From Terriglobia bacterium (GTDB lineage: Bacteria > Acidobacteriota > Terriglobia > Terriglobales > SCQP01): a DNA stretch of 64,000 bases. Positions 39,127 to 62,685 of the stretch are shown one piece after another. The stretch spans positions 1 to 64,000 of the forward strand of contig JAJPKR010000060.1 in the NCBI GenBank assembly GCA_021323595.1, written 5' to 3'. The notes beneath the pieces were generated by a model, which worked only from the letters and a program-made list of their open reading frames with translations, had not been told where the DNA came from and ran no database searches. The translations under genes were made by a program, and so were the position numbers. Within the stretch, counting starts at the first letter, position 1. The number at the start of each line of letters is the position of its first letter.

Positions 39127-40188
39127 ATGGCGGAAACACACGTCCGGCGGTTGACGGAGATGTCGAAGGCCGCCGGTTGAGCGAGCAAGCTGAGTCCATC
39201 GGTTTTGGACCAGGTGCTGGCGCAGTTGGCGCGATCGTCGGATCCCAATCTTCTGGTCGGCTTTGAACATGCCGACGACGCCGGGGTGTACCTCATCGCG
39301 CCGGATCTGGCGCTGGTGCAAACCGTGGACTTTTTCACCCCCATCGTGGATGATCCCTTCGCCTTCGGCCAGATCGCCGCCGCCAACGCGCTCAGCGACG
39401 TCTACGCCATGGGGGGCGAGCCGCGCACCGCGCTCAACATCGCGGCCATTCCCGACGACGTGCCGGCCGCGATCGTCGGCGAGATCGCGCGCGGCGGGCT
39501 GAGCAAGCTGGAGGAGGCCGGTTGCACGCTGGTGGGCGGCCACAGCGTGCGCGACGCGGAGCTGAAGTTCGGCTATGCGATCACCGGCCTGGTGCGGCCG
39601 GGCGAAACGCTGACCAATGCCGGCGCGCGCGCCGGCGACGCGCTGGTGCTGAGCAAGGCGCTGGGAACGGGCGTGATCGCGACGGCGCTGAAACGCGGCC
39701 AGGCGCGCGATGCCGACGTTGCCGCCGCCGTGGCCTCGATGACCACGCTCAACCGCGACGCCGCGCGGGCGCTCGCCGGCCTGGAAGCGCACGCGGCCAC
39801 CGACGTCACCGGCTTCGGGCTGCTCGGCCATGCGCGCGAGATGGCGGCGGCGAGCGCGGCGCGCCTGACGATCTTCGCCGAGGCGGTGCCGCTGCTGCCG
39901 GGCGCGCTGGCTTACGCCGCCCATTTCCGGCCGCGCGGCCTGAACGACAATCGCGACTTCGCCGCCTGCGCGGTCGCCTTCGACGCCGCTATCGGAGACG
40001 ACCTGCAAGCGCTGCTGTTCGATCCCCAAACCTCGGGCGGAATGCTGGTGGCCTTGCCGGCGGAGCGCGCGCCGGAGCTGCTCCGGCGCTGGCGCAATTT
40101 GGGTCTGGCGGCGGCGGCGATCGGCCGCGTCGAGCCCCCCGCGCCAGACCAGCGGCCGCTCGCCGTCGTGCCGGGTTCCGGACAATAG
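39127..40188 (+). CDS. selD: Selenide, water dikinase, selenocysteine-containing (UGA read through)
   Basis: The ATG follows AGGAGG. Codons 1-17 encode RLTEMSKAAG at the end, codon 18 is TGA, and the frame goes on with ASKLSPSVLDQVLAQLARSS and a full SelD: HADDAGVYLIAPDLALVQTVDFFTPIVDDP, ANALSDVYAMGG, GGHSVRDAELKFG, TDVTGFGLLGHARE and LLFDPQTSGGMLVAL. Family alignment by eye puts TGA at the catalytic Cys17 of E. coli SelD (AGCGCK) with the essential Lys kept. Many SelD proteins carry Sec there. The 353-residue length is normal only if TGA is read as Sec. It makes selenophosphate for Sec and selenouridine. A start after the TGA would delete the catalytic loop. Confidence 0.9.
39178..39210 (+). 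promoter_or_regulatory. UGA codon and SECIS-like hairpin of selD
   Basis: UGA at 39178-39180 is followed after 13 bases by GUCCA-UCGGUUU-UGGAC (39194-39210), a 5-bp stem whose loop contains GGU. Spacing and loop agree with bacterial SECIS elements (E. coli fdhF hairpin starts 11 bases after its UGA). Confidence 0.72.
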
Positions 40189-60642: not shown

Positions 60643-61101
60643 CTAGGCCACGCCGAGCGCCTCCAGCACCTCCCGGGCATGGCCTTCCGGCTTTACGCGA
60701 TTGAAAACGTGGGTGATACGTCCCTTGCCATCAATCACGAAGGTGGTGCGCTCCACGCCCAGGAACTTGCGTCCGTACATGCTCTTTTCTTTGAGGACGC
60801 CGTAGGCGGCGGCCAGCTCGCGATCGCGGTCCGCGAGCAGGGGGAAGGGAATGCGCTCCTTGGTCTTGAACTTTTTCTCTTCCTCGGGAGGGTCGGGACT
60901 GGCGCCGAGCACGACGATGCCGGCGCGCTCGAATTTTGCATAGGCGTCGCGAAACTCGCGAGCTTCCACGATTCAACCCGGCGTGTTGGCGCGAGGAAAG
61001 AAATAGAGGGCCACAGTGCGCCCGCGAAACTGGCGCAGCGTCACCGGCCGGCCGTCTTCGTCGGACACTTGAAAGTCAGGAGCGGCGTCGCCAACTTGCA
61101 T
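60643..61101 (-). CDS. Selenocysteine peroxiredoxin, Bcp/PrxQ type (UGA read through)
   Basis: From the ATG (MQVGDAAPDFQVSDEDG) the frame reads VALYFFPRANTPG, then codon 43 is TGA, then IVEAREFRDAYAKFERAGIV, LGASPD, FKTKERIPFPLLADRDRELA and GVERTTFVIDGKGRI. In Bcp/PrxQ the position after TPG is the peroxidatic Cys, so TGA fills precisely that place. The 152-residue length is normal for the family. There is no other Cys in the whole protein, so it would be a 1-Sec enzyme without a resolving Cys. Sec-containing Prx of this type are known in other bacteria. It reduces peroxides with a thiol donor. A GTG right after the TGA would yield an inactive fragment. Confidence 0.85.
60947..60975 (-). promoter_or_regulatory. 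UGA codon and SECIS-like hairpin of the peroxiredoxin
   Basis: On the minus strand UGA (60975-60973) is followed after 11 bases by UCGCGA-GUU-UCGCGA (60961-60947), a six-bp stem with GU in its loop. The 11-base spacing equals that of the E. coli fdhF element. Confidence 0.75.
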
Positions 61102-61290: not shown

Positions 61291-62685
61291 ATGCGTCTCG
61301 CAAGACTGCTCGGCTATTTCGTGCTTGCGTCGGGGCTGGCGGCATTGCCGGCGGCAGCGGAATGTCCGGCGGGCGCGTTCGCGATTCGCGGCGCGCGGGT
61401 CATCACGGTCAGCGGGCCGACGCTGCCCAGCGCCACGGTCGTGATTTGCCAGGGCGTGATCACGGCGGTGGGCGCCGATGTGACGGCGCCGCCGGAGGCG
61501 GAGGTGCTGGACGGCCATGGCCTGACGGTCTATCCCGGGCTGATTGACGCCTACAGCCAGGACGGCCTGCCGCCGGCGGCGCGGCCGGCGCGGCCGATGC
61601 CGGCGGCGCAGCCCGGAGGGCCGCAGCCCCTACCGCCGCTGGACGCGATTCCCGTCAACTCCTATCGGAACTATCTCGACCCGCCGCCCGGCGGCGTGAC
61701 GCCGGCGCGGCGGGCGGCGGATCTGATTCGGCCGCTGGGCGCGCTGGCGGCGGTGCGGGCGACGGGCATTACCACCGCCCTCAGCGCCCCGCTCGGCGGC
61801 GTGTTGGTCGGCCGGGCGGCCTTGATCGAGCTGCGCGGGCCGACGGCCGGCGACATGATCGTGAATCCCGACGCCGGTCTGGTAGTCGAGTTGCGGCCGG
61901 AGCGGGGCTTCGGCGGCGGCTATCCGTCGTCGGTGATGGGCGCGGTCGCCGTGTTTCGGCAGGCATTCTTGGACGCGCGGCGCTATCAGGAGTCCGAAGC
62001 CATCTACCGCCAGGCGGGCGAGCGCGGCCTGCCGCGGCCGGTGTACGACCGCCAGATCGTTTCCTTGCTGCCCGCGCTGAACGGCCAGGAGCCGGTCATC
62101 TTTATCGCCAACGATCAAGACGCCATCTTGCGCGCCTTGGCGGCGGCGGCGGAGTTTCATCTGACGCCGATCATCGCCGGCGGCGCCGAGGCCTGGAAGC
62201 AGACGGCAGCGCTGGCGGCCGCGCACGCGCCGGTGCTGGCGACCCTGCAATTCAAGCCCGCCGATGCCGACAGCCTGGGTCCGGACGAGCGGAAGAAGGA
62301 AGAGGATGAGAACGCCTCCAATCCGGCGGCGCTGGCCAAGGCCGGCATTCCTTTCGCCCTCACCAGCCAGGGTCTCACCGCCAAAGACGACTTTTTCGCG
62401 CAGGTGCGCGACGCGATGAGCCATGGCTTGAGCGCCGACGATGCGCTCAAGGCGACCACGCTGTGGCCGGCGCGCATCCTCGGCGCCGAGGCGCAGCTCG
62501 GCTCGGTGGACGCGGGCAAGATTGCCGATCTCGTGGTCGCGACCGGCGATCCGTTCGCGCCCGCGGCGCAGGTAAAGTACTTGTTCATTGACGGGCGCTT
62601 GATTTTCGTGCATCCCGAGCAGCGCCCGCATCGGCCCGGTGCGCGGCCCGGCGCGCGGCCGGCGGAGACGGAGGCGGGACGATGA
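61291..62685 (+). CDS. Amidohydrolase-like protein lacking metal ligands, exported
   Basis: A 464-residue protein from an ATG behind GGGAGGA. Signal: LLGYFVLASGLAALPAAAE. The amidohydrolase fold is evident (FAIRGARVITVSG, VYPGLIDAYSQDG, PIIAGGAEAWK, DALKATTLWPARILGAEAQLGSVDAGKIADLVVATGDPF). However, the HxH after PGLIDA is YSQ, and the next expected His is replaced in FIANDQDA. It is therefore probably a catalytically dead subunit. Its stop overlaps the ATG of an intact paralogue, suggesting a heteromeric complex. Confidence 0.85.
   Translation: MRLARLLGYFVLASGLAALPAAAECPAGAFAIRGARVITVSGPTLPSATVVICQGVITAVGADVTAPPEAEVLDGHGLTVYPGLIDAYSQDGLPPAARPARPMPAAQPGGPQPLPPLDAIPVNSYRNYLDPPPGGVTPARRAADLIRPLGALAAVRATGITTALSAPLGGVLVGRAALIELRGPTAGDMIVNPDAGLVVELRPERGFGGGYPSSVMGAVAVFRQAFLDARRYQESEAIYRQAGERGLPRPVYDRQIVSLLPALNGQEPVIFIANDQDAILRALAAAAEFHLTPIIAGGAEAWKQTAALAAAHAPVLATLQFKPADADSLGPDERKKEEDENASNPAALAKAGIPFALTSQGLTAKDDFFAQVRDAMSHGLSADDALKATTLWPARILGAEAQLGSVDAGKIADLVVATGDPFAPAAQVKYLFIDGRLIFVHPEQRPHRPGARPGARPAETEAGR

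Follow-up and report, generated by a model that had tools for sequence, protein, structure and literature searches.

What does a TGA codon stand for when it interrupts an otherwise intact peroxiredoxin gene exactly at the catalytic position? This question is raised by a gene found on the minus strand (60643..61101) of the window, that is, the whole stretch of 64,000 nucleotides analysed here from contig JAJPKR010000060.1 of a Terriglobia bacterium, a soil-type acidobacterium. The frame runs for 152 codons from 61101 to 60643, beginning with MQVGDAAPDF and ending with LGVA and a TAG, and it is open except for a TGA at codon 43 (60973..60975, minus strand). As already claimed in the initial annotation, this codon falls in the column of the peroxidatic Cys of Bcp/PrxQ enzymes, within the motif PRANTPG-U (P36-R-A-N-T40-P-G-U43). 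Our reading, which we hold with high confidence, is that of a PrxQ/Bcp peroxiredoxin whose UGA43 would be decoded as selenocysteine (Sec) by means of SelB, Sec-tRNA and a SECIS element, with Sec43 attacking peroxide and an external reductant restoring the selenol.

The family assignment comes from both profile models and single residues. Scored with C for U, the window protein matches NCBIfam PRK09437 (Bcp/PrxQ) over its full length with 147.4 bits, above the curated cut-off of 140, and it reaches 130.8 bits with Pfam AhpC-TSA. The signature PxxxTxxU (P36, T40, U43) is complete and is accompanied by G42 and the active-site Arg R118; a Gly just before the peroxidatic residue is a hallmark of PrxQ, in which the location of the resolving Cys is not consistent (PMC5302317). 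Among solved structures the closest are PrxQ/Bcp enzymes, with 5enu as the best match (125.6 bits), and the genome holds a single PrxQ gene at this similarity, the next best matches being redoxins with 27-39% identity. With the Cys-type PrxQ/Bcp enzymes (PRK09437; 5enu, 5iiz, 3gkk) the window protein shares the fold family as judged by sequence, the PxxxTPG-C framework, the Gly before the peroxidatic residue (CP) and the Arg of the ERTTF motif, but it differs from them in having Sec for CP and Arg48 instead of Cys at CP+5. Its Lys79 occupies the site of the second Cys in the Bcp of 5iox. The translated protein of 152 residues contains no Cys anywhere, the resolving Cys of PrxQ included. A resolving Cys occurs in many, not all, PrxQ, and family membership does not require it. 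PrxU of Eubacterium acidaminophilum (NF040737) and Prx-SUH (NF045827) are also selenocysteine peroxiredoxins of the same superfamily; membership in both was rejected, with 41.9 bits against a cut-off of 270 and 42.5 bits against a cut-off of 298.

The Cys-free composition bears directly on how such an enzyme could work. Sec is the only chalcogen nucleophile besides Met, and the enzyme must therefore be of the 1-Sec type; since no internal resolving thiol is available, an external reductant is needed, as had been reasoned before and as follows from the sequence. SelB and Sec-tRNA would decode UGA43 as Sec, aided by the SECIS hairpin, with its loop 17 nt past the UGA. T40 and R118 would activate Sec43, as in the standard peroxiredoxin active site, and Sec43 would attack the peroxide to give a selenenic acid, which an external thiol would bring back to the selenol. 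Thioredoxin and thioredoxin reductase are the usual partners of PrxQ. Both are encoded in the genome of the window (122.6 and 370.7 bits, each above its cut-off), and we infer that this pair is the likeliest reductant, other thiols being possible.

Such a protein might also serve mainly as a redox regulator or peroxide sensor, relaying oxidation to partner proteins instead of acting as a peroxidase. A Cys-free 1-Sec protein cannot make an internal Se-S bond and would be expected to react with external thiols, which is consistent with that role, but the score lies above the curated cut-off of a thioredoxin-dependent thiol peroxidase, PxxxTxxU and R118 are kept, and nothing specific to signalling is seen, so that we regard a mainly regulatory function as unlikely.

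The reading as a Sec peroxidase can be followed through the orthologues. Our set comprises 70 genes, 45 with TGA at the active-site codon (that of the window included) and 25 with TGC or TGT; L083, L084 and L096, one interrupted by a stop and two duplicates, were excluded from the counts. Thus, 44 orthologues in other genomes of the order share the TGA, which aligns with the Cys of the homologues and has conserved protein on either side. Within the family, TGA was found at this codon in five further genomes and TGC in three; among 200 genomes of the order, many more have TGA. Two observations had been named in advance as arguments against Sec, that is, decay past the TGA in close relatives and reads with TGC or TGT at this site. 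The relatives keep both the protein and the TGA; TGC or TGT belongs to ordinary Cys homologues of other species. Among the matches listed, internal stops other than TGA amount to one TAG and one TAA. Sec PrxQ is widespread in this bacterial order; in the rest of the phylum, TGA forms turn up seldom and in scattered genomes (G497, G331, G393, G345 and G338). TGA at the PrxQ active site was also observed in L140, L099 and L134, on contigs labelled Latescibacterota, Chloroflexi and Anaerolineae, but these genes do not have the 8-bp hairpin of the acidobacteria at the same register.

Folding and comparison revealed a SECIS-like hairpin behind the TGA of the window gene (60944..60963, minus strand). 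It is composed of the arm GCUCGCGA (60963-60956), a GUU loop (60955-60953) and the arm UCGCGACGC (60952-60944), in which one C is bulged. Six contiguous pairs (TCGCGA/TCGCGA) start 11 bases past the TGA, and beneath them lie a one-base bulge and two further G-C pairs; the initial annotation had described a hairpin at this distance with a GU-containing loop, which we read as GUU. The bSECIS model specifies a loop of 3-9 nt with a G in its first two positions, an upper stem of 4-16 bp, a distance of 16-37 nt from the UGA and a minimum free energy of at most -7.5 kcal/mol (PMC13188914). The window hairpin agrees with all four constraints of that model, with a 3-nt loop opened by G, an upper stem of 6 bp, a spacing of 17 nt between UGA and loop and an energy of -9.8 kcal/mol. 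Taken alone, its folding energy is unremarkable (70 nt, z = +0.81), 16% of the synonymous recodings of the local segment fold as well, and an Rfam search near the gene gave no match above gathering. When the window gene is recoded synonymously, an 8-bp stem with a GUU loop remains just 1.9% of the time. As the fold energy by itself is not significant, the case for the hairpin rests on its conservation in relatives.

In the Sec genes the hairpin is maintained at the RNA level. Its shared form has an arm of eight bases, a GUU loop, an arm of nine with one bulged base and 17 nt from UGA to loop. A perfect 8-bp stem was found in 31 of the 45 Sec genes against two of the 25 Cys genes, and the GUU loop in 42 of the 45 Sec genes. 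The perfect stem is present in 19 of 33 distinct Sec sequences. Synonymous recoding, done 1,000 times, left it in 4.0 sequences on average and never in more than 10; 1,000 column shuffles averaged 11.9, with 17 as the highest value. Both tests ignore kinship. The innermost pair of the stem covaries (G-C 16, A-U 8, G-U 2), and the bulge shifts among positions 27-30 across genes with the number of pairs kept. Because the bulge sits at these differing positions, a fixed-register count gave only 79% paired cells and was dropped; a bulge-tolerant count gave the clear result. Codon choice in the stem region differs as well, in counts that again ignore kinship, the tree showing Sec and Cys forms interleaved: Gly49 is encoded by GGG in 34/37 Sec genes, 2/9 Cys genes and 83 of the 535 Gly codons elsewhere in the same genes, Asp52 by GAC in 41/45 Sec genes against 13/24 Cys genes, and Ala47 by GCG or GCT in 41/44 against 7/24. 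In L038, L064 and L075, all of them Sec PrxQ genes from the genus g36, the common register gives six pairs and a CUU loop; these three genes fold a different, longer hairpin, and their SECIS form may differ.

The genome of the window (3.55 Mb, 65 contigs, 97.6% complete) carries selA (521 bits), selB (346 bits) and selD (351.5 bits), all above the curated cut-offs, together with a tRNA-Sec of anticodon tca (RF01852, 69.7 bits, above cut-off), on which ARAGORN concurs. A lack of selA, selB or selC, which had been held to speak against Sec, is thus not observed. The selD gene, encoding selenophosphate synthetase, lies in the window itself (39127..40188, plus strand) and supplies the selenium donor. 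It has its own in-frame TGA near the start (AAGUASK), matching TIGR00476 with 351.5 bits with one TGA and 357.6 bits for the protein, which makes it a second selenoprotein gene within the same window as PrxQ. Across the orthologue set, selA was matched in 44 of the 45 Sec-PrxQ genomes (one match partial) and in 23 of the 25 Cys-PrxQ genomes, and six additional Cys genomes belonging to other genera all stayed below its cut-off. This distribution indicates that species lacking the Sec machinery rely on Cys and those that have it use either; as many machinery-bearing relatives use Cys, Sec is not indispensable to the function of the fold. Four genomes from the family of the window genome (G001-G004) have selA, but no PrxQ match reached the threshold applied to them.

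These data also bear on a selenium-free reading of the codon, in which UGA is translated as Cys or Trp through an altered code or readthrough. The frame is continuous whatever sense reading UGA is given, but a tRNA-Sec with UCA anticodon is present along with selA, selB and selD, TGA terminates orthologues within the same family (L027-L030), and the hairpin accompanies TGA and is mostly missing with TGC, which renders this reading very improbable. A pseudogene or sequencing error, by which a recent change from TGC or TGT to TGA wrecked an ordinary Cys peroxiredoxin, is hardly credible and is already refuted by the conservation of the TGA across genera and two families: the codons are one base apart and the assembly, in 65 contigs, is a draft, but the 44 orthologues of other genomes have TGA at the same codon with the protein conserved past it, the hairpin is under RNA-level constraint and the Sec machinery is complete. 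From these sequence comparisons, the prediction that UGA43 encodes Sec, and is not a product of decay, is well supported.

Codon 48 of the window gene (60958..60960, minus strand) is Arg and, in the orthologue alignment, lies at CP+5, the resolving-Cys site of most Cys relatives. Cys occupies CP+5 in 21 of the 25 Cys genes, and in the 45 Sec genes we found Cys in 24, Arg in 12 and Ser in nine. Apart from position 43, Cys is absent from 16 of the 45 Sec genes, that of the window included, and from one of the 25 Cys genes (L036). The raw counts associate Sec with loss of Cys48 (Fisher p 0.018). Of eight independent pairs on the tree, however, about four carry information; almost all of these point the same way, with a median p of 0.125. 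As too few independent pairs differ, a link between Sec and the loss of the resolving Cys is suggestive only.

A tree of the PrxQ genes made without the active-site columns needs 14 changes between Sec and Cys, of which at least eight are forced by well-supported branches. Together with L025 and L026, its closest relatives, the window gene forms a supported clade of Sec, Cys-free genes (100/90). The complete hairpin persists in two Cys genes: L036, with TGC and no further Cys, is sister to the Sec gene L054 (support 99/55), and L095, with TGT, is sister to the Sec gene L081 (97/86). Both are best read as recent Sec-to-Cys replacements that would have left a fossil SECIS. Fossil SECIS elements have been reported from other organisms, insects among them (PMC2500217). 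On balance, we lean slightly towards a history in which, within one acidobacterial order, PrxQ switched between Sec and Cys many times and left SECIS fossils in the recent reversals, Sec allowed repeated loss of the resolving Cys (from a 2-Cys type to a Cys-free 1-Sec type), and the need for a SECIS shaped codons and residues past the active site.

Sec-containing peroxiredoxins of COG1225/Bcp have been catalogued since 2005, and the window gene joins a known selenoprotein family. The TxxU form of COG1225 was described from 43 Sargasso Sea genes (PMC1088965), 12 proteins and five Cys-to-Sec events were counted in 2006 (PMC1794560) and 91 proteins in 2016 (PMC5029168), and a 2022 review places Sec-containing peroxiredoxins in Bcp (PMC9312934). 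The window gene is like these in its Bcp COG, its TxxU and its in-frame UGA followed by a bacterial SECIS; that it is without any Cys may set it apart from them. For Acidobacteriota, literature outside most subscription journals yielded only selenoprotein counts, that is, three families with four proteins in 2006 (PMC1794560) and three selenoprotein genes in Occallatibacter riparius (PMC12013277), and in the same literature no account of Cys-free PrxQ selenoproteins was found. The earlier view that a Cys-free Sec peroxiredoxin is little described needs two qualifications: Sec-containing Bcp/COG1225 peroxiredoxins are a catalogued family (PMC1088965, PMC9312934), and the Cys-free state is frequent in the order and not special to the window gene. 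Less well documented are the occurrence of the family across Acidobacteriota, the SECIS fossils and the suggested tie between Sec and loss of the resolving Cys.

Annotation blind to Sec PrxQ would yield two fragments without the active site. A call of 42 and 108 residues had been foreseen for the window gene; the downstream fragment of 108 aa (60643-60969) is indeed listed as an open reading frame, and the upstream one has 42 aa only from the ATG at 61101 and 181 aa if an automatic caller takes the ATG at 61518. Miscalls of this kind probably lead to an underestimate of both the antioxidant capacity of acidobacteria and their use of selenium. With Sec and Cys forms mixed in one order, SECIS fossils and a resolving Cys that varies, nature offers an experiment on the benefit of selenium to a peroxiredoxin and on how Sec is gained and lost.

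Elsewhere in the same genome, L002 1501-1896 (G000:C62:25851-26246) is another peroxiredoxin-like gene with TPG-U; its product has an N-terminus resembling a signal peptide and scores under the cut-off of every NCBIfam peroxiredoxin model matched. L003 1480-2034 (G000:C55:82465-82836) encodes a redoxin with the motif FYRGAW-U-PSC, in which an in-frame TGA stands at the first Cys of the motif, and is weakly related to SelL (37.5 bits against a cut-off of 120).
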